Assembly: GCA_025351345.1 (NCBI GenBank)
Contig: JANXWB010000073.1
Location: forward strand, 1-64,000
Length of the DNA: 64,000 nucleotides
Reading direction: 5' to 3'
Source of the DNA: Synechococcales cyanobacterium GL140_1_metabat_312
GTDB taxonomy: Bacteria; Cyanobacteriota; Cyanobacteriia; Leptolyngbyales; Leptolyngbyaceae
A program made the translations under genes and the position numbers. The notes under the pieces were generated by a model, which saw only the letters and a program-made list of their open reading frames with translations, was not told where the DNA came from and did no database searches. Shown in pieces: positions 15,443-24,961 of this stretch (positions are counted from its first letter, which is position 1; each line of letters opens with the position of its first letter).

Positions 15443-15454
15443 TTGGTGCGATCG
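15425..15454 (+). repeat. Direct repeat copy 1 (3' end of sui1)
   Basis: 30 bp beginning AAGCTGAGTGGGGGATAG and ending in a CGATCG core. It covers the last codons and stop of the SUI1 gene. The same sequence with one mismatch recurs at 16677-16706, on the far side of the toxin-antitoxin genes. Confidence 0.85.
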
Positions 15455-15508
15455 GCAGGAAATTTTAGGCGAGTATTGTTTAGAATGGTAAAAGATGAGG
15501 AATTCAAC

Positions 15509-15724
15509 ATGCATCATTCTGAAATTGTGACGGTTTCCCAAAATATAATGAGCGGGATCCCTGTGTTTTGTGGAACGCGGGTGCCTGTAAAAACATTAGT
15601 CGATTATTTGAAAGCGGGAGAGTCTATTGATGATTTTCTCGATGGATTTCCCACGGTCAGGCGGGAACAGGTCATTGCATTTTTAGATGCTGCGAATGAA
15701 CAGATGATTGAGCTGGTTGCGTAA
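15509..15724 (+). CDS. DUF433 antitoxin-like protein
   Basis: 71 residues from the ATG at 15509, which has a GAGGA site 8 bp upstream; an alternative ATG lies at 15485. DUF433 signature: GIPVFCGTRVPVKTLVDYL, followed by the acidic FLDGFPTVRREQV helix. DUF433 proteins are small HTH-like antitoxins commonly paired with DUF5615 PIN-like toxins. Exactly that pair is seen here: the next gene starts directly after this stop codon (TAA ATG). Confidence 0.88.
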   Translation: MHHSEIVTVSQNIMSGIPVFCGTRVPVKTLVDYLKAGESIDDFLDGFPTVRREQVIAFLDAANEQMIELVA

Positions 15725-16048
15725 ATGCGGGTTTTGTTGGATGAATGCATTGATCGTCGATTAGGGCGGGATCTTGTGGGTTACGAAGTTTGTACCGTTC
15801 CCCAAATGGGTTGGGCTGGAACTTCGGATGGAGATTTATTGCCATTGGTCGTATCTGAGTTTGATGTATTTATTACGGTCGATCGTAATTTGCCATATCA
15901 GCAAAATTTAGCAGTTTTGGATTTAGCGGTTTTGATTTTGGTCGCACGATCAAACCGTTTGGCGGATCTTCAGCCTTTGGTATCCAGGATTTTAGAAGCA
16001 ATTCCGATCGCGCTGAAAGGTGAGGCAATGACGATCGTATTGTCGTAA
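15725..16048 (+). CDS. DUF5615 PIN-like toxin
   Basis: 107 residues. N-terminal LLDECIDRRLGRDL carries the first acidic pair of the PIN-like (Mut7-C-like) fold, and DVFITVDRNLPYQQNL the second. The length is normal for DUF5615 and the gene appears intact. It is translationally coupled to the DUF433 gene. Predicted ribonuclease toxin neutralised by the upstream protein; activity has not been shown for most of the family. Confidence 0.88.
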   Translation: MRVLLDECIDRRLGRDLVGYEVCTVPQMGWAGTSDGDLLPLVVSEFDVFITVDRNLPYQQNLAVLDLAVLILVARSNRLADLQPLVSRILEAIPIALKGEAMTIVLS

Positions 16049-16122
16049 TCGATCGCTATGCTGAGGGGTGATTTTGCTATAGTACGATGCATAACTCTAG
16101 ATGAATCGGAGAAGTAAGTTTT

Positions 16123-16371
16123 ATGACGATCGTAGTAACCTTGAGTCCAGAGTTAGAGGCACGATTACGAGCGAAGGCGACTCAGCGCGGTGAGGATTTG
16201 GAGCAAGTAGCATCGGCGCTATTGGGGGATATTTTAGATTGGGAAGCGCAGGATTCGGAAGAGGCGATCGTGGGGATTCAGAGGGGTTTGGATGATTTTG
16301 AGGCAGGACGATTTCGACCTTTTGAGGAATTTGTGGCTGAGCAACGTCTCAAGTATGATTTGCCATCATGA
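16123..16371 (+). CDS. Ribbon-helix-helix type antitoxin
   Basis: 82 residues. It begins MTIVVTLSPELEARLRAKA, typical of short RHH or related antitoxin N-termini, and ends in an acidic region with FEEFVAEQRLKYDL, the sort of segment that wraps the toxin. The stop overlaps the ATG of the next frame (ATGA at 16368-16371), the usual antitoxin-toxin coupling. The partner toxin is broken, so this may be an orphan. Confidence 0.75.
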   Translation: MTIVVTLSPELEARLRAKATQRGEDLEQVASALLGDILDWEAQDSEEAIVGIQRGLDDFEAGRFRPFEEFVAEQRLKYDLPS

Positions 16372-16665
16372 CCTATCAGATTGAACCTATTGATTGAATT
16401 GTCGAGTGTCGCTGAAGCTGAGGCCGATCGTGCCTTTTTACGTTTGTCTCAGTTGATGTCGATTGAACAAGTAAAGGTTTGGTATGATGGATTATTTGTG
16501 GCGATCGGTTCTTTATCTCAAATGCCTAGACGATGTGCCATGGCGAATTGTCATCGGATTATTTTTGTAATTATTGAGACTGAGGATAGGGCGATCGTTC
16601 GGATTCTTCATGTCCGTCATGCCTCGCAACAAACGGTGGGTGATGAGTTAGAAGGACAAAATTAG
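16368..16665 (+). pseudogene. RelE/ParE-type toxin, disrupted
   Basis: The coupled ATG at 16368 gives MTYQIEPID and then a stop. Removing 13 bases (CCTATTGATTGAA, which follow a first GATTGAA) restores MTYQIELSSVAEAEADRAF, a standard RelE/ParE start, so a 13-bp insertion with a partly duplicated motif has frameshifted it. There is also a probable internal deletion: MPRRCAMA runs straight into NCHRIIFVI, whereas the family has about 20 residues between (including the usual RxLLYGK segment). The C-terminal VRILHVRHASQ is intact. A shorter TTG-started frame at 16381 exists but would lack the N-terminus. Confidence 0.75.
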
Positions 16666-16809: not shown

Positions 16810-17043
16810 TTATTCATCACTGTCGCCCTCTTCTTCGATCGCCTGCAAAGCCAACAAAATCTCTTCTTCCTTCGCATCAAACGTATCTTCGTCCATGGCC
16901 CCCAAATCAAATGCCATCTGTAACTGAAGCAATTGCTTACTCAACACCGTTTTAGGATCAAACTCATCCATAACCCGATCGTGAATTTGGTCTGCGATCC
17001 AAGTCAGACCCGTAATAGGCGAAGCTAGAAGATCAAAAATCAT
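16810..17043 (-). CDS. gvpG: Gas vesicle protein GvpG
   Basis: 77 residues. It begins with the characteristic FDLLASPITGLTWIADQI and ends in an acidic helical tail (KEEEILLALQAIEEEG). GvpG is a minor protein needed for vesicle assembly. Last gene of the minus-strand gvp operon, 12 bp after gvpF. gvpV and gvpW, which often follow in other cyanobacteria, are not seen; the toxin-antitoxin island comes next. Confidence 0.93.
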   Translation of the reverse strand: MIFDLLASPITGLTWIADQIHDRVMDEFDPKTVLSKQLLQLQMAFDLGAMDEDTFDAKEEEILLALQAIEEEGDSDE

Positions 17044-17055
17044 TAGTGAACATTC

Positions 17056-17802
17056 CTAATTAAGTTGAGCGAAATTATAAGGTGCAGTGAAATTGTTATA
17101 CCGGATTTTGAACCGATCGGGGAATTGCGCATCTAAATCCTCAACATACTGCGAAAATAGCTCTTCAGCATCCCAAGAAATCAAAAACGCCGCATTGTAG
17201 ATCATCGTCTCATCTAACCCATCATTCTCAATTTGTTCAATAGACAAAGGGGATAATTTTTGACGAAACTCATTAACGATCGCATTTCGCCGTTCTACCA
17301 TTGCGCGTTCGATCGCCTGCCCAAGTTTAATTACCGTATCCATCCCCATAACTTGACCTTGATACTGATCTCGCTCATTCGCCAATTCCTTATTTTCCAA
17401 CATCATTTGCTGAAGTTCAGATTCAGGTTCCCAAAAGATTTTTACACTCACTTCGCGGTAGCCATCCAACTTACTCAAAAGCGATCGCATTACCTCTTGA
17501 TAGGGCACAAAAAGTTCCGCCTCAACCGTTTCCCAATCTGCAACCGTCAACCCAAAACGCAATGGCAACAGATTCCGATACCCCGCTGTCATTGCGCTTT
17601 CCAAGACTCGTTCGTGACCTAGAAGATTGCGACGACTAGCAAGATATTTAGATTGTTTAGCGGCTGAATACAATAGGGTCAAGCCATCAAATTCTTTAGT
17701 TTCGATCGGTTGTTGATCGAGTCCTTGCAATGTATCGAGAACAGTGCGATCGCCATTCAAAGCTTCAGGAAGAATGCCGTAGAGATAAAGTCCGTGGGTC
17801 AT
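17056..17802 (-). CDS. gvpF: Gas vesicle protein GvpF/GvpL family
   Basis: 248 residues. N-terminal GLYLYGILPE and the LLPLRFGLTVADWETVEAEL segment are hallmarks of the GvpF/L family. A central helical region follows (LVIKL-type coiled segment with EnkELANERDQY) and the C-terminal YNNFTAPYNFAQL. GvpF sits at the gas-facing surface or acts in early assembly. In cyanobacterial operons the gene between gvpK and gvpG is gvpF, hence the symbol. 42 bp after gvpK. Confidence 0.93.
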   Translation of the reverse strand: MTHGLYLYGILPEALNGDRTVLDTLQGLDQQPIETKEFDGLTLLYSAAKQSKYLASRRNLLGHERVLESAMTAGYRNLLPLRFGLTVADWETVEAELFVPYQEVMRSLLSKLDGYREVSVKIFWEPESELQQMMLENKELANERDQYQGQVMGMDTVIKLGQAIERAMVERRNAIVNEFRQKLSPLSIEQIENDGLDETMIYNAAFLISWDAEELFSQYVEDLDAQFPDRFKIRYNNFTAPYNFAQLN

Positions 17803-17844: not shown

Positions 17845-18330
17845 CTAAGTTAACGGCTGAGACGTCAAAACAAGTTGTAATTTGGCATGAATTAAATCGA
17901 TGTTGGCAAGACCAAGCTCGACTTCACCTTGAACAACGATTCCTGTGTTCAATAATCGATCTAACAATTCTAACAATGTAGGTTTTGCTGAAGGTTGGCC
18001 AGGGTAATAGCCGCCTTCCCTTGGCAGCAGGCTTCCAGCTTCACCTAAATCAAGATTCAAACTTGCGGGTTCAATATCAAAAATTTTACAAATTTCAACA
18101 ACTTGTTCCGCCAGCTTTTTCAGACTATCGGACGCATTGTCGAGTTGTTCATCACTCAAATCACCGCGCTCCATACTCCGAATCACCTGTGCTTCCATAA
18201 GTTGCCGAATTAATTCAGTCACGGTCAACAATAAGGGCGCTAATCCAGCATTTGGCTTTTCGGGTTTAATCTTAGACTTGATCGGAATTATAGGTTGCTG
18301 AGTGGGGGTGAAAACAGCGTCGATACTCAT
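17845..18330 (-). CDS. gvpK: Gas vesicle protein GvpK
   Basis: 161 residues. The GvpK core is present: GLAPLLLTVTELIRQLMEAQ, VIRSMERGDLSDEQLDNAS, then SLNLDLGEAGSLLP and the C-terminal LLELLDRLLNTGIVVQGEV, which echoes the GvpA/J fold. It has a short N-terminal extension with repeated Pro/Lys. It overlaps gvpJ by an ATGA junction, indicating translational coupling. Confidence 0.95.
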   Translation of the reverse strand: MSIDAVFTPTQQPIIPIKSKIKPEKPNAGLAPLLLTVTELIRQLMEAQVIRSMERGDLSDEQLDNASDSLKKLAEQVVEICKIFDIEPASLNLDLGEAGSLLPREGGYYPGQPSAKPTLLELLDRLLNTGIVVQGEVELGLANIDLIHAKLQLVLTSQPLT

Positions 18331-18689
18331 TGGGCTTGGGGAGTGGGGAGAAGGGGTTTGCGAAGTTCTAATTCGAGAGCAGCGATACGATCGGTAAGCG
18401 CTTGGTTTTGGGCAAGGAGCATTTGGGTTTGTTCTTGAAGCTGTGAATTCTGAGAACTCCAGTGAGGATTATTTTCCCACCAATTAATGCCGATTTCACG
18501 CGCTTTATCCACCGATGAAATCAGGAGCCGAATCCGAATATTTAGCAATTCCGTTTGAGCAACGGAGACGGAAATATCGCCAGCAATCACAATGCCTTTA
18601 TCGAGGACGCGCTCAAGCACATCAGCGAGGCTGGATCCCCCGGTGGCCGTAGCGATCGGGCTGCGTTGAGGACTATTGAGTGAGTTCAT
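18327..18689 (-). CDS. gvpJ: Gas vesicle protein GvpJ
   Basis: 120 residues. A GvpA-like core (SLADVLERVLDKGIVIAGDI, VSVAQTELLNIRIRLLISSV) is followed by a coiled-coil tail (LQEQTQMLLAQNQALTDRI) and a Pro-rich end, as in other GvpJ proteins. A minor shell protein needed for vesicle nucleation. The stop overlaps the gvpK start. Confidence 0.95.
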   Translation of the reverse strand: MNSLNSPQRSPIATATGGSSLADVLERVLDKGIVIAGDISVSVAQTELLNIRIRLLISSVDKAREIGINWWENNPHWSSQNSQLQEQTQMLLAQNQALTDRIAALELELRKPLLPTPQAQ

Positions 18690-18755: not shown

Positions 18756-20228
18756 CTAACCGATTGCAAAGAAATGTCGATCGCGTTGAGCTAACCGATC
18801 GGATTTAGCAAGATTCCGAATGGACTCGACAACTTTGCTACGGGGTAAACTGAGATCGCTTTCGATTTGGGAAAGTCTTGCACCATTTTCACAACTTTTT
18901 AAGTATAGATGAAGCTGATCTTCAAGAGTAAATTCTAGAAGTTCATCAGATTCTTCAAGAGTGACGACTGTGGCGATCGTATCTTCAACTTCATCCAAAG
19001 ATACAAGAGGTGCAGCCTCAAAGAAATCGAATTCTAGACTCGATGCAAGCTCTGCAAAGTCTCCCGATTCTTGGGCTTCATCAAGAACAGCCTGCATAGT
19101 TTCATTATCTAGACGGGCGATTGTTTCTTCGATCGGTGGCTCAAAGGCTACATCAATAAAGCTTTCGAGTGTTTCAGCGATAGAAGCTTGAGCTAATCCT
19201 TCAAACGCTTCAGCGATCGGAGATTCAATATATTCTTCAATCCCATGAATGATCGGCTCTTCAATCCCATCAACAATAGACATCGAGACCACAGGAACCA
19301 ATTCACGCAGAACCGATGACTCATTAATAATGTTCGATTCAGGACGAAGAATATCCCAAAGTAATGTCGTAGATTCAGCCACCGTAAGAGGCGACCTGGA
19401 TCTCAAAATATCAATACATAAATCTCGAAATTCGGAATTATCTAACGAAACTTCGAGTTCGTGATCTTTACAAATTTTGGCAATCATCAAACAGGATCGT
19501 AATCCAGACGCTCCAATTCCAGATGTTGAACTAGATTGAGTTCCTTCGCGGAATGCCCGGACAATGTTGACAATCGTGATGGCTGTTGCCCGATCGAGTT
19601 CAGTTTTTTGAATAACGATTTCTTGTTGAGTCAGTTCGTCAGGTTCTGGCACATCTATTGTAATCAAACGATCCATTAAGGCATCTTGAGTCGAATGCAC
19701 GCCGCAATATTCTTCAGGATTAGAGGTGAAAATAGCTCGGAAGTTTGGACTGACTTTGACATACTCGACCCCATTGCTCTCGGGCGGCAAAATGAGAATC
19801 TTTTCTTCTAAAACCGACAGAAGAATGTTATTGACTTCGGGGCGCGATCGGTTGAATTCATCATAAATCAGCGTATATCCTTCACGGCAAGCCAACGTCA
19901 GACGAGAATCAACCCAGTTTTGACGAACGCTATCTTCGACTTTTAGAACGCTATGAATATAATTGTCAACCAGTTTTTTATGGGTATAACCAGATTGTTT
20001 ACCAATCATGTCCGATGACTTAGCTTCATCATCCCCAAACATCAGCATCATGGGCCGTTGAAGCAAATCAGCCAAATGTAATGACAGTGTAGTTTTCCCG
20101 GTTCCGGCAGGTCCACGCAGATGCACCGGGAAACCAGACTGAAGGTATCGCAATGCCCGCGCCGTCAAGCGTTCTATAGCGGGGGTACTGACAAATCGAC
20201 GGGGGCTAGTACGAAGAATGGTCGCCAC
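18756..20228 (-). CDS. gvpN: Gas vesicle ATPase GvpN with long C-terminal extension
   Basis: AAA+ MoxR-type ATPase required for vesicle enlargement. Residues 1-300 are typical: Walker [19 protein letters not shown] near 39-56, Walker [16 protein letters not shown], sensor 1 [14 protein letters not shown], and the Arg-finger region [15 protein letters not shown]. Known GvpN proteins are about 300-350 residues. This one has 490, with an acidic low-complexity linker (about 325-437) and a final winged-helix-like module (438-490, DNA 18756-18917). That module matches the end of GvpC in the same operon. The GTG start at 20228 gives the expected N-terminus. Confidence 0.95.
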
Positions 20229-20343
20229 GGTTAAAAATCCTAGAATTCAAGGGGGATTCGGTCTGGAAAGAGGGTTTAGTTTTTTAGGCTCGATCGGATC
20301 GGGTTACACAATCAAAGGCTGATTGATTTCAGTCTTGACATGG

Positions 20344-21249
20344 TTAGGCCCGATAGTAAGCCCGATCGCGTTGAACAATGTCGCCCGATCGGATCAGATG
20401 CTGTAGGGTATGCACCAATTCACTACGACTTACTCCTAGAGTGGCCTCCAGATCAGATAAACGAACACCGGAGCGAGAATTTACGGTTGCCAATAGTTTT
20501 TCGGACAGTGTAACGCCAACGATCGGCTCGTCAATCGGCTCGTCAATCGGCTCAACCTTGGGTTCTATGGGCGTTTTGACGATCGGCGCTTTAAGGACAA
20601 CTGGAGAGTTAGTCGAAGCTGTAGTAACAGATTTTGCAACGGATTTCGCTGGTGAGGGCGGAGACTCTTGAATTACAAATTTAAGAAAGTCTTCAATAGC
20701 TTGGGAGCCGATCGCTTGAATTGGAGCCGTTTGGCTTCCGATCGTCATCGGCAATGATCCATCATTCCCCCAAACATAATCTCGAATCGATTGAACTGAA
20801 ACTTTACGAGCAACGGTGTCTAAGGCAAACTGTGCGAACAATGCTTCAACATCTGCCGATCGTTGACGACGCGTTTCTTGCAACATGGCGGAAATTTCGG
20901 CGGACTGAGCCTTACGATCGCAGCGGAATTCTTCTAGTAATAATCGTAAATCTGCGGCAGCAATCAATCGGCAATCGTGTAATTCATGGAGAAATTTTTG
21001 GACGTCCCGACGACGCGTACTGGCTTCGATTTCACGTCCCGCTTGATCACATTGGGCTTCGAGTTGACGATCGAGTTCATCGGCTCGGAGTTTTGGTAAG
21101 ACTTGGCTCAGTTCATCACGGAGTTGTGTCGCCATTTCTGCATGTTCGGCTTGATGCTGCGATCGGAGTTCTGCAACCGTTCGCGATCGTTCCACGACCT
21201 CCGCTTGACGAGTTTGTCTGTCCTGTTGCCAAATATCTTTAAGTGCCAT
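20344..21249 (-). CDS. gvpC: Gas vesicle shell-strengthening protein GvpC, extended
   Basis: 301 residues. It opens MALKDIWQQDRQTRQ, the signature GvpC start, and continues as a long amphipathic helix region to about residue 163, ending near IRDYVWGND. GvpC binds the outside of the GvpA ribs. The usual 33-residue repeats are only weakly visible (LRLLLEEFRCDRKAQ, VEALFAQFALD). From about 190 to 245 there is a Pro/Ser/Thr/Val linker with a tandem PIDEPIDEPI. The last 50 residues (DNA 20344-20502) form a winged-helix-like module homologous to the end of GvpN. Position after gvpA and before gvpN is standard. Confidence 0.9.
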   Translation of the reverse strand: MALKDIWQQDRQTRQAEVVERSRTVAELRSQHQAEHAEMATQLRDELSQVLPKLRADELDRQLEAQCDQAGREIEASTRRRDVQKFLHELHDCRLIAAADLRLLLEEFRCDRKAQSAEISAMLQETRRQRSADVEALFAQFALDTVARKVSVQSIRDYVWGNDGSLPMTIGSQTAPIQAIGSQAIEDFLKFVIQESPPSPAKSVAKSVTTASTNSPVVLKAPIVKTPIEPKVEPIDEPIDEPIVGVTLSEKLLATVNSRSGVRLSDLEATLGVSRSELVHTLQHLIRSGDIVQRDRAYYRA

Positions 21250-21411: not shown

Positions 21412-21630
21412 TTAAGCCGCAGGAATTGCTGCTTGGGAAGTAAGGCCCACTGCTTCTGCATACTTAAGATAGGTTTCAACCGACGCGATGACCACGCGGG
21501 CTTCAATGGTTAACAATTCGATTCCGACTAACGAAACCCGAACCCAAGCATCAATCACAATGCCTTTGTCCAAGATCCGATCGACCACTTCTGCCAAACT
21601 CGAAGAAGAGTTCACTTTTTCAACAGCCAT
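21412..21630 (-). CDS. gvpA: Gas vesicle structural protein GvpA
   Basis: 72 residues, the main rib-forming protein. It begins [20 protein letters not shown] and continues with [20 protein letters not shown] and [20 protein letters not shown], nearly invariant across cyanobacteria. A GAGGAA ribosome-binding site lies 7 bases before the ATG. First gene of the operon. Only one gvpA copy is in the window. Its own terminator follows. Confidence 0.98.
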
Positions 21631-21964
21631 GATGATTCCTCGTAGGTTTAATTAAATACAATTTGTAGCAAGACACAGCATGAAGCGCTTTCAATGATGC
21701 ACAAGGCACTGTTTAAGACGGCTATGACATCCTTATCCACAAGATGCACTTAGGTGAATGAAAATCTACTAAGTGATATTACTTAACTTTGATGTTGGGT
21801 CTTACTTTCTGGACAATTTTATTTTATTTCGGCTTTATTCTAGCATTGTGGCGATCGCCTATCAGATCACTATTCTGTCTAAAGCCTTTAAGAACGGTTG
21901 TATTTCAAGAACACCTGTATAATCAGTGCAATATTTTTATAAGTAGTTGGGTTTGAGATTCGGG
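21631..21964. promoter_or_regulatory. Divergent gvpA / DUF4912 promoter region with inverted repeat
   Basis: About 330 bp without a gene. It must contain the gvpA promoter (minus) and that of the 1,000-residue protein (plus). CACTTAG at 21747-21753 and CTAAGTG at 21769-21775 form a 7-bp inverted repeat with a 15-bp centre, 117 bp upstream of gvpA; a dimeric regulator could bind it. A GCGATCGC octamer lies near 21850. I could not fix -10/-35 boxes with confidence. Confidence 0.4.
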
Positions 21965-24961
21965 ATGGCACATAAAAAATCGTTCGGATTGGGTCAAAGC
22001 AAGAGAATACGTTCCTTACGTGCTTCACAAGCTCTCACTCAGAGGGTGTGGACGGTTTTATTAAGTTCGGTGACTTGTGCCACGGTTTTGGGTTTGCCTT
22101 CGATATTAAGTTCAGTGAATGTGCGTGATATTGCCATAGCCCAAACTGCAACACCGCCTGTTTTACCCTCAGCATTGCCCCAGAGATCAAGTCTAACGAT
22201 CGAAGGATCTGGAAGTTTGACAGCAGTCAATCAGGTATTAAAAGAGAAATTTGAAGGGAAGTATCAGAAAACGCCCGTCACCTTTGGCACGAATGGGACG
22301 GCGGCGGGCTTACAGGCATTGGCTAATGGGAAAGCTGACTTAGCCGCGATCGGACGATTGTTAACACCTGAGGAAAAAGCGCAGGGATTCATTGCAATTC
22401 CCATTAAGCGTGAAAAGATCACCCTATTGGTCAGCGAGGAGAATCCCTTTCGCGGCAGTTTGACCATTGAACAGTTTGCTAAGATTTTTCGAGGGGAAAT
22501 TACAAATTGGTCTGAAGTCGGCGGGCCAGATAAAACCATTCGAGTTGTAGACCAGCCGGAGGTTAGCGACACGCGCCAGGTGTTCCCGGATTACCCAATT
22601 TTTAAAACAGCGCCGTTTCAAGTTGCTGCGAGTGCCGTGCAAGTTGGGTCTGAAGCGCTCGATGCGATCGCGGCACAGCTTGGGGTTGACGGCTTGGGTT
22701 ATATCACCGCAGATGGGGTAAAAAATCTCAAGGGAGTCCGTTCATTAGATATGCACAAAACCCAACCAAGCGATCGTCTTTATCCGTTCTCCCAGCCGAT
22801 CGCCTATGTCTACAAAAAAGGCAGTTTGTCCACCGCCGCTCAAGCCTTTCTTAGATATGTCGGGACAGACGAGGGAAAACTTGCAATTAAGTCTGTTAGT
22901 TCCCCAGGTGCGGTGATTGGAAATTCAGCGGCTTCGATTGCAATGGCGATCGCGACAACAGCCTCTGCCGCCGTTCCAACAGCAACTTCTACGGTAACTC
23001 TCGCCGCCACCGTTCCAACTAATGTTAGTCCAGCTCCAGCGTTATCTAGTCCAGCTCTAGCCATGGCTAATAACGCTCCAGATAAAAGCCTAGCTTGGTT
23101 GCCGTGGATTCTGGGATTAGGGCTAATAGGTTTAGCGTGGTGGTTATTGAAAAACAAGGGAGACAATGGGGCTGATTCGCCAGTGGAACCAACGATCGAC
23201 TCTACCGCATCTGTGCCTGAAACTTTAGACCCAATTGTGCCCGTTACAGATTCAACAACAGTCACACCACCGATCGCCTCTGTTAATCCAGTTGATGCAA
23301 ATGGTGCGATCGCCGTGGGTGCAGCAACCGGAACATTCCTATTGGATAAAGATTCCCGTTCATGCGAGTCGTCTGAAAATCCGGTGAATGATGACTCAGT
23401 GAATGATGACTCAATTGTTGCCGTTGACCACGATGTTGATACCTATGGCGCGGGAACAGTGCAGATCAACCCTCGCGATAGTGGCGGTAATTCGGGTGGA
23501 TTGAAATTCCCACCGATCGATTCCGCTATCCCTCCACAAGCTGTGGCGATCGCAGGTGTCGCAGGGCTGGTCGGTGTTGCAGTCGCAGGACTGGCGGATG
23601 AAGCAAACGCCTCTGACAAATCTGCGGCCAATGTGACCGTAACACCTTCCTTAGTTCCGGCGCTCATACTTCCCCATGAACCAATTACTCAATTACCCCC
23701 AGACATTCATGCGCCTCTAAATTCTGCGTCCCCCACAACGAACCCGAGCATACCCGATCCAACGATCGCCGAATCTAAAACGCTCCCACTAGAGCAATCG
23801 GATCCTGGTGAATTACCCAACTCTGCCGGAATCGCCGCTAGAGTTGCAGCCGGAATTATTGTCGGAGCGAGCGCGGTTGTACTCGGTAATACGGGACCTA
23901 GGAATAATAGGGATAGTTTGACGTCCGACCAGTTGGCTACTGTGGATCACGACCTTCCTGATTTGGTTAGCGGATACGGCGAAAGTCGTATTGTCCTGAT
24001 GCCTCGCGATCCTCAATGGGCTTATACCTACTGGGATATTCCCGAAGAACATCGGCAATCGGTGCGTTATCTCGGTGGCGAGCAGCTTGCCCTTCGGCTC
24101 TATGACGCAACAGACCTAGACCTGAATAATAGCAAGCCCCACAGCGTTCAACAGTATGCTTGCGATGAATTAGCAAGAGATTGGTACCTGCCAATTCCAG
24201 TCAGCGATCGGGACTACATCACAGAAATTGGGTATTTAACGGGTTCAGGAGAATGGCTACTCTTAGCCCGATCGAACCGAATCGGCATTCCCCCGGTCTA
24301 CCCGACCGATTGGATGGACGATCAATCTATCACCGTGGACTGGGAAGAACCGTTACAAGGCAAGACCTTCCTCCAAATTGTCCCTCCCGGAAGAGCTAAA
24401 CCTCAGACGGATGAGGCATTTCATGACCAAATCTTTCACCTCGCCTACGGAATGCACCAAGAATCGAGCCTCGTGGGATCGTTCTTTGGATCCATGCACC
24501 AAGTTCCGTCAGAGTCGTTAAGTTCCTTTGTTTTCCCAGCAGGCGCTGGCCTTTGGGCTAATGAATTCCCCGTTAGATTAGCCGCATCCAGGATTGGCAT
24601 GTCGGACATGAGAATGTCAGGAATTGGAATGTCAGGAATTGGAATGTCGGGCATTGGACTTGGCGCGTCAATACCGACCGATCGGTCTCGCAAATTCTGG
24701 CTAGTAGCGGATGCTGAACTCATCGTCTATGGCGCAACTGAACCCGACGCCCAACTAACGATAGGCGGAGTTCCGGTACAACTCACACCAGAAGGAACCT
24801 TTAGAATCCAACTCTCGTTCCAGGATGGCAATCTAGATTTTCCCATTATGGCGATCGCAAAAGATGGTGAACAAATGCGACAAGTTCGGATGACCTTCGA
24901 TCGCAATACACCATTACGTAAAACAAATAGCAAAGAGGACGCTACGGACGAACGATATTAA
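21965..24961 (+). CDS. Phosphate-binding-like domain / DUF4912 fusion protein
   Basis: 998 residues from the ATG at 21965; an in-frame TTG at 21947 adds six. A signal-anchor near residues 33-55 precedes a PBP-like domain of the PstS family (LTIEGSGSLTAVNQVL, FGTNGTAAGLQALANGKADL, FRGEITNWSEVGGPD), about residues 80-320. A Ser/Thr/Ala-rich linker and one transmembrane helix (LAWLPWILGLGLIGLAWWLL, near 380) follow. After an acidic region with two more hydrophobic patches comes a DUF4912 domain (VLMPRDPQWAYTYWDIPEEH, about 675-815), a Met-Ser-Gly-Ile repeat, and a beta-rich C-terminus (YGATEPDAQLTIGGVPVQL). Function unknown. Divergent from gvpA. Confidence 0.85.
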   Translation: MAHKKSFGLGQSKRIRSLRASQALTQRVWTVLLSSVTCATVLGLPSILSSVNVRDIAIAQTATPPVLPSALPQRSSLTIEGSGSLTAVNQVLKEKFEGKYQKTPVTFGTNGTAAGLQALANGKADLAAIGRLLTPEEKAQGFIAIPIKREKITLLVSEENPFRGSLTIEQFAKIFRGEITNWSEVGGPDKTIRVVDQPEVSDTRQVFPDYPIFKTAPFQVAASAVQVGSEALDAIAAQLGVDGLGYITADGVKNLKGVRSLDMHKTQPSDRLYPFSQPIAYVYKKGSLSTAAQAFLRYVGTDEGKLAIKSVSSPGAVIGNSAASIAMAIATTASAAVPTATSTVTLAATVPTNVSPAPALSSPALAMANNAPDKSLAWLPWILGLGLIGLAWWLLKNKGDNGADSPVEPTIDSTASVPETLDPIVPVTDSTTVTPPIASVNPVDANGAIAVGAATGTFLLDKDSRSCESSENPVNDDSVNDDSIVAVDHDVDTYGAGTVQINPRDSGGNSGGLKFPPIDSAIPPQAVAIAGVAGLVGVAVAGLADEANASDKSAANVTVTPSLVPALILPHEPITQLPPDIHAPLNSASPTTNPSIPDPTIAESKTLPLEQSDPGELPNSAGIAARVAAGIIVGASAVVLGNTGPRNNRDSLTSDQLATVDHDLPDLVSGYGESRIVLMPRDPQWAYTYWDIPEEHRQSVRYLGGEQLALRLYDATDLDLNNSKPHSVQQYACDELARDWYLPIPVSDRDYITEIGYLTGSGEWLLLARSNRIGIPPVYPTDWMDDQSITVDWEEPLQGKTFLQIVPPGRAKPQTDEAFHDQIFHLAYGMHQESSLVGSFFGSMHQVPSESLSSFVFPAGAGLWANEFPVRLAASRIGMSDMRMSGIGMSGIGMSGIGLGASIPTDRSRKFWLVADAELIVYGATEPDAQLTIGGVPVQLTPEGTFRIQLSFQDGNLDFPIMAIAKDGEQMRQVRMTFDRNTPLRKTNSKEDATDERY
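24595..24665 (+). repeat. In-gene tandem repeat coding MSGIG units
   Basis: Tandem 15-bp units (about ATGTCAGGAATTGGA) encode MSGIG three times, preceded by diverged MSDM and RMSGIG copies. Located between the DUF4912 domain and the C-terminal beta domain of the large fusion protein. Likely a slippage-prone linker. Confidence 0.8.

Follow-up and report, generated by a model that had tools for sequence, protein, structure and literature searches.

Gas vesicles have been studied in several organisms, and in that literature GvpC lies on the outside of the shell, along its ribs, and GvpN is a scarce ATPase needed for vesicle elongation or enlargement. Two published accounts bear on the C-termini of these proteins, namely PMC5259702 (Pancrace et al. 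2017) and PMC9372576 (Jost and Pfeifer 2022). In Halobacterium salinarum, GvpC has a globular C-terminal domain that binds GvpN, GvpO, accessory proteins and itself, and it is proposed there that self-association of GvpC may meet competition from GvpN and GvpO (PMC9372576). In Planktothrix, identity to GvpN of that genus is 64% over 28 residues of the long GvpC C-terminus, and this conserved C-terminus of about 60 residues also resembles that of Geitlerinema GvpC; the account gives no domain, fold, wide family distribution or function for it (PMC5259702).

A preliminary description of the DNA analyzed here held that its GvpN and GvpC end in a common module that is not known from the described forms of either protein. 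This was nearly right, the exception being the 28-residue Planktothrix similarity noted in 2017 (PMC5259702). A literature search, which lay mostly outside subscription papers, returned nothing relevant that linked gas-vesicle proteins to a winged helix or a helix-turn-helix. Hence, beyond those 28 residues, the tail appears undescribed in the searchable literature.

The gvp cluster and the architecture of GvpN and GvpC

The minus strand of the window, by which we mean the whole 64,000-nt stretch of DNA analyzed, carries a cyanobacterial gvp cluster comprising gvpA, gvpC, gvpN, a GvpA-like gene, gvpK, gvpF and gvpG (Table 1). Fusion of GvpK to a GvpJ/M/S-like part, comparable to the gvpK product listed here, is mentioned in a 2024 gas-vesicle review. 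An Rfam scan recovered no RNA feature. On the plus strand, positions 15443-16665 hold four small ORFs in two pairs whose translations look toxin-antitoxin-like by eye, and positions 21947-24961, adjoining gvpA, encode a 1004-residue protein that, judged by eye, is PstS-like in its N-terminal part and has a long stretch of low complexity.

Table 1. Features of the gvp cluster and domains of its GvpN and GvpC proteins (window coordinates)
Feature	Position	Strand	Evidence and remarks
gvpA, shell monomer	21412..21630	-	PRK09371, 137.7 bits; context
gvpC, outer-surface shell protein (by likeness to other GvpC), 301 aa	20344..21249	-	between gvpA and gvpN; rod profile by hhalign
GvpC rod, residues 1-163	20761..21249	-	AlphaFold2: one helix (2-159)
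GvpC linker, rich in Pro and mostly disordered, residues 164-243	20521..20760	-	contains EPIDEPIDEPI; AlphaFold2 pLDDT about 44-60
GvpC C-terminal predicted winged-helix tail, residues 244-301	20347..20520	-	AlphaFold2 pLDDT about 95; elements as in GvpN tail
gvpN, AAA+ ATPase, 490 aa, GTG start	18756..20228	-	TIGR02640, 383.8 bits (cut-off 266.8), residues 12-278
GvpN AAA+ core, residues 1-300	19329..20228	-	family-model match; dN/dS 0.06 vs nearest relative
GvpN acidic low-complexity linker, residues 301-433	18930..19328	-	35 D/E, 2 K/R; dN/dS 0.41
GvpN C-terminal predicted winged-helix tail, residues 434-490	18759..18929	-	AlphaFold2 pLDDT 93.7, helix-helix-helix-strand-strand; dN/dS 0.07
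GvpA-like minor shell protein (gvpJ position)	18327..18689	-	PF00741, 62.4 bits; context
gvpK with C-terminal GvpA-type domain	17845..18330	-	PF05121 residues 21-102, PF00741 residues 118-156; context
gvpF	17056..17802	-	PF06386, 200 bits; context
gvpG	16810..17043	-	PF05120, 70.4 bits; context

The window GvpN scores above the curated cut-off of TIGR02640, and its GTG start and N-terminus have similar counterparts in many relatives. The 262 positions of the model match only the first part of the protein, up to residue 278, and four GvpN proteins from outside the cyanobacteria, those of Halobacterium, Octadecabacter, Methylocella and Spartinivicinus, are 327-347 residues long, with no tail found in any of them; the preliminary description was thus correct that the protein exceeds the family norm. 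The AAA+ core is followed by a linker of 133 residues and the tail. The rod of the window GvpC, a protein that is likewise long for its family, is related to canonical cyanobacterial GvpC (hhalign 98.4%, E 5.6e-15), and its position on the outer surface of the vesicle is taken from its likeness to other GvpC proteins. Pfam scans found no match to the PF01304 repeat in this protein, and 4 of 47 tailed GvpC proteins match it (best 1.9e-4). Here too a low-complexity linker leads into a tail; the GvpN linker is acidic and the GvpC linker Pro-rich with the PIDEPIDEPI motif, as in the preliminary description, whose span took in all of gvpN and, of gvpC, the tail alone, with the rest of that gene outside it.

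Homology of the C-terminal domains

Several comparisons support the claim that the same module ends both proteins: 1) The two tails, of about 58 residues, align by BLASTP with 19 of 55 residues identical (35%), 36 of 55 positive and an E-value of 6e-11. 2) From an (A/V)RLS motif to QRDR the two tails align free of gaps, with 15 residues, then 16 and then QRDR in both, so that the matching spacing described earlier is borne out. 3) A search of the GvpC tail against its own genome returns itself and GvpN only (GvpN at E 2e-5). 4) A tail profile likewise finds the GvpN/GvpC pair in this genome at 3.7e-17 and 6.1e-17, the next match being at 0.017. 5) Separately built profiles of 51 GvpN tails and 47 GvpC tails match each other with 99.8% probability and an E-value of 2e-30. 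Judged by these sequence comparisons, the C-terminal domains of GvpN and GvpC are homologous. Mean identity is 56% among GvpC tails, 36% among GvpN tails and 38% between the GvpN and GvpC tails of the same genome, and five positions are invariant across the 47 GvpC tails.

Predicted fold

AlphaFold2, supplied with GvpN sequences only, models the GvpN tail as H7-16, H24-31, H35-47, E51-54 and E57-60. Supplied with GvpC sequences only, it returns H244-258, H264-271, H275-288, E291-294 and E297-300 for the GvpC tail. Each model thus consists of three helices and then a wing of two strands, and both tails are confidently predicted to be winged helices, in line with the "winged-helix-like" pattern noticed in the preliminary description. 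Foldseek with the GvpN tail agrees, and together with VIA-align it gives as neighbors MarR, MntR and Z-DNA binders, alongside RPA32C and ScpB. The last two winged helices bind proteins, and that at the C-terminus of RPA32 recruits other proteins. RPA32C matches the GvpN tail with a VIA Z of about 10, the matched entries including its UNG2 and SMARCAL1 complexes, and this likeness to the tail is a fold match only. At the sequence level the best matches are DNA-binding winged helices such as TrmB, for 38 of the 47 GvpC tails (TrmB at E 7e-8 at best) and 36 of the 51 GvpN tails. The isolated tails of the window fall below the gathering scores of known winged-helix families (at best AbiEi_4, 20.4 versus 25 bits; TrmB, PF01978, 14.7 versus 25.6 bits), and the GvpC-tail profile, searched against PDB sequences, had no match below E 0.05. 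The winged-helix fold alone does not specify a ligand.

Distribution of the tails across cyanobacteria

Within the same order, 33 of the 42 genomes carry the tail, often as a GvpC-GvpN pair, and a GvpC-tail profile finds it in 95 of 291 genomes of the class, spread over 57 genera and at no more than two places per genome. All 30 other tail-positive cyanobacterial genomes that were checked have GvpN, and all 42 tail matches lie in or beside gvpN; no tail was seen outside gvp loci in these 30 genomes. The preliminary description had considered that the tails might be standard in this clade with a known role. They are indeed standard in many gvp clusters, both in this family and in further cyanobacterial ones, but no role was found for them in the literature searched.

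For counts per locus we used a set of 80, consisting of 79 named loci and the window. Both tails are encoded in 41 of these, the GvpC tail only in 10, the GvpN tail only in 11 and neither in 18. A first count over 80 named loci, before correction, had given 39, 10, 13 and 18, respectively; one locus (L138), whose gvpC possibly lies outside the retrieved region, was then set aside, and another (L098) was recounted as having both, its GvpC tail (L098:5064-5207) being out of frame with the upstream GvpC ORF, which points to a frameshift or sequencing error. In raw counts that ignore kinship, the GvpN tail accompanies 41 of the 51 GvpC tails and is found in 11 of the 29 loci without a GvpC tail; a tree-based test of this co-occurrence had no power. 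In four Nostocales (L179-L182) the tailed gvpC is located downstream of gvpN, at a distance of about 6 kb, rather than in its usual upstream position. An additional tail match in some Nostocales, considered as a third tail-bearing gvp protein, proved to be this relocated GvpC, and that candidate was rejected.

Loci with neither tail are of Nostocales types (for example Dolichospermum, Aphanizomenon, Anabaena, Calothrix and Nodularia) and include bloom formers of the Anabaena/Dolichospermum type. In six of them, five of the Dolichospermum/Anabaena type and one from Calothrix, a decayed GvpN tail directly follows a shortened gvpN. Decayed tails were recorded in L104, L111, L112, L113, L117 and L097, and also in L007 and L008, with in-frame stops in all except L117. 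Such a decayed tail after a shortened GvpN is a fossil of tail loss. In seven loci of one genus (L022-L028) GvpN ends in ...NQSLKAIQSLLRGNLPQRKD or similar, resembling the last third of the tail with no profile match; these ends are possibly deletion remnants of the tail.

Evolution and selection

Relative to the nearest relative, dN/dS is 0.07 in the GvpN tail and 0.17 in the GvpC tail, as against 0.41 and 0.38 in the respective linkers. By these values purifying selection acts on both tails, and constraint on the linkers is loose. A tree of 102 tails requires 2 changes between GvpN and GvpC labels versus 34 expected by shuffling; given this almost perfect split, the duplication or sharing of the tail looks old, rather than a product of recent copying. 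The three GvpC tails of the window genus are placed weakly, on a long branch, among GvpN tails. Gene conversion of these from GvpN was considered, but a tree in which the GvpC tails all form a single clade is not rejected (p-AU 0.42) and we therefore make no such claim. On a tree of GvpN cores, presence of the GvpC tail changes twice and presence of the GvpN tail 12 times.

Functional implications

The occurrence of the same domain on a motor and on an outer shell protein, and in the genomes checked only in gas-vesicle genes, suggests a docking module. A winged helix on flexible C-termini also fits the role of the Halobacterium GvpC C-terminal domain. Hence we favor, at about even confidence, the proposal that the tail is a gas-vesicle-specific winged-helix protein-docking module tying the GvpN motor to the GvpC-coated shell. 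Homology, predicted fold, confinement to gvp loci and selection are documented above; the binding of a protein by the tails, and the identity of that protein, we infer. Under this docking proposal, the helical GvpC rod would lie along the GvpA ribs and its disordered linker would expose the GvpC tail at the vesicle surface. The scarce GvpN might then use its paralogous tail to reach the GvpC-coated shell, where it would contact GvpC tails, in competition with GvpC tail self-association, or bind their same partner, and the AAA+ motor would thereby be kept near the growing shell. A more specific and rather doubtful version is that GvpC tails cross-link their neighbors, and that the mimic tail of the GvpN motor opens or occupies these contacts as the shell elongates. 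If true, the gas-vesicle AAA+ ATPase would be recruited by a mechanism lost from the Anabaena/Dolichospermum model lineage.

The preliminary description had offered a common binding partner or direct contact between the ATPase and the shell. Both are reasonable by the Halobacterium analogy, but an obligate pairing of the two tails is unlikely: 10 loci have the GvpC tail only and 11 the GvpN tail only, and once phylogeny is accounted for the GvpN and GvpC tails do not covary (partial r about 0, p 0.52). Direct coevolution between them was accordingly rejected. The same observations agree with the idea that the tails do not touch, each of them binding a common third partner such as GvpA, GvpF or a cell structure, with one docking site used separately by the two proteins. 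The C-terminus of Halobacterium GvpC does also bind GvpF, H, I and L, but in that organism GvpN itself binds the GvpC C-terminal domain, and we consider the third-partner explanation possible, though on the unlikely side.

As the nearest sequence families and several fold neighbors, MarR, MntR and Z-DNA binders among them, are DNA-binding, one may also ask whether the tails bind nucleic acid, either as a tether between vesicle and nucleoid for positioning or partition, or through an action of unassembled GvpC or GvpN on gvp expression. However, the tails have a mean net charge close to zero (-0.4 in GvpC and -0.2 in GvpN), in 37 of 47 GvpC tails the conserved Arg with which the third helix starts is followed by Phe, and no such role for GvpC or GvpN was found in the literature examined; these points are weak ones, and we regard nucleic-acid binding as improbable. 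That the tail is a relic, for the most part dispensable, which serves benthic or filamentous lineages and is disappearing at little cost to vesicle making, would accommodate the bloom formers without either tail, the several decayed GvpN tails, the frequent changes in GvpN-tail presence, and the shorter GvpC of planktic Planktothrix as against the long form of non-planktic strains with its GvpN-like C-terminus (PMC5259702), but it is very improbable given the low dN/dS of both tails, the invariant positions in the GvpC tails and the rarity of changes in GvpC-tail presence.

Comparison with known systems

An open question in gas-vesicle research is how GvpN works on the shell, and the shared tail offers an experimental handle on it, one that is absent from the Anabaena/Dolichospermum-type strains, the kind used as models. 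The GvpC tail could also act as a natural addressable tag for vesicle engineering. By their description, GvpC40 of non-planktic Planktothrix and the GvpC of Geitlerinema sp. PCC 7407 carry the same tail as the window protein. Anabaena-type GvpC, with its 33-residue repeats, has a homologous rod and occupies the same gene position, but nothing comes after its repeats, so that it lacks both the linker and the winged helix. The C-terminal domain of Halobacterium GvpC, likewise compact and placed after helical repeats, would be an analogue of the cyanobacterial tail in the way it works; it has a zinc-finger motif, however, and the 347-residue Halobacterium GvpN is tailless. The tail profile gave no significant match in the Halobacterium gvp locus, where a remote relation could still exist, and in view of this and the zinc finger we treat the likeness as analogy only. 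TrmB/MarR-type winged helices, the nearest matches of the tails in sequence and fold, are DNA binders, whereas the tail is a domain appended to gas-vesicle proteins. Thus, the tail is a real, conserved and little-noticed domain that makes a new architectural variant of known proteins, and by a mechanism that we infer it may join their motor to their shell.
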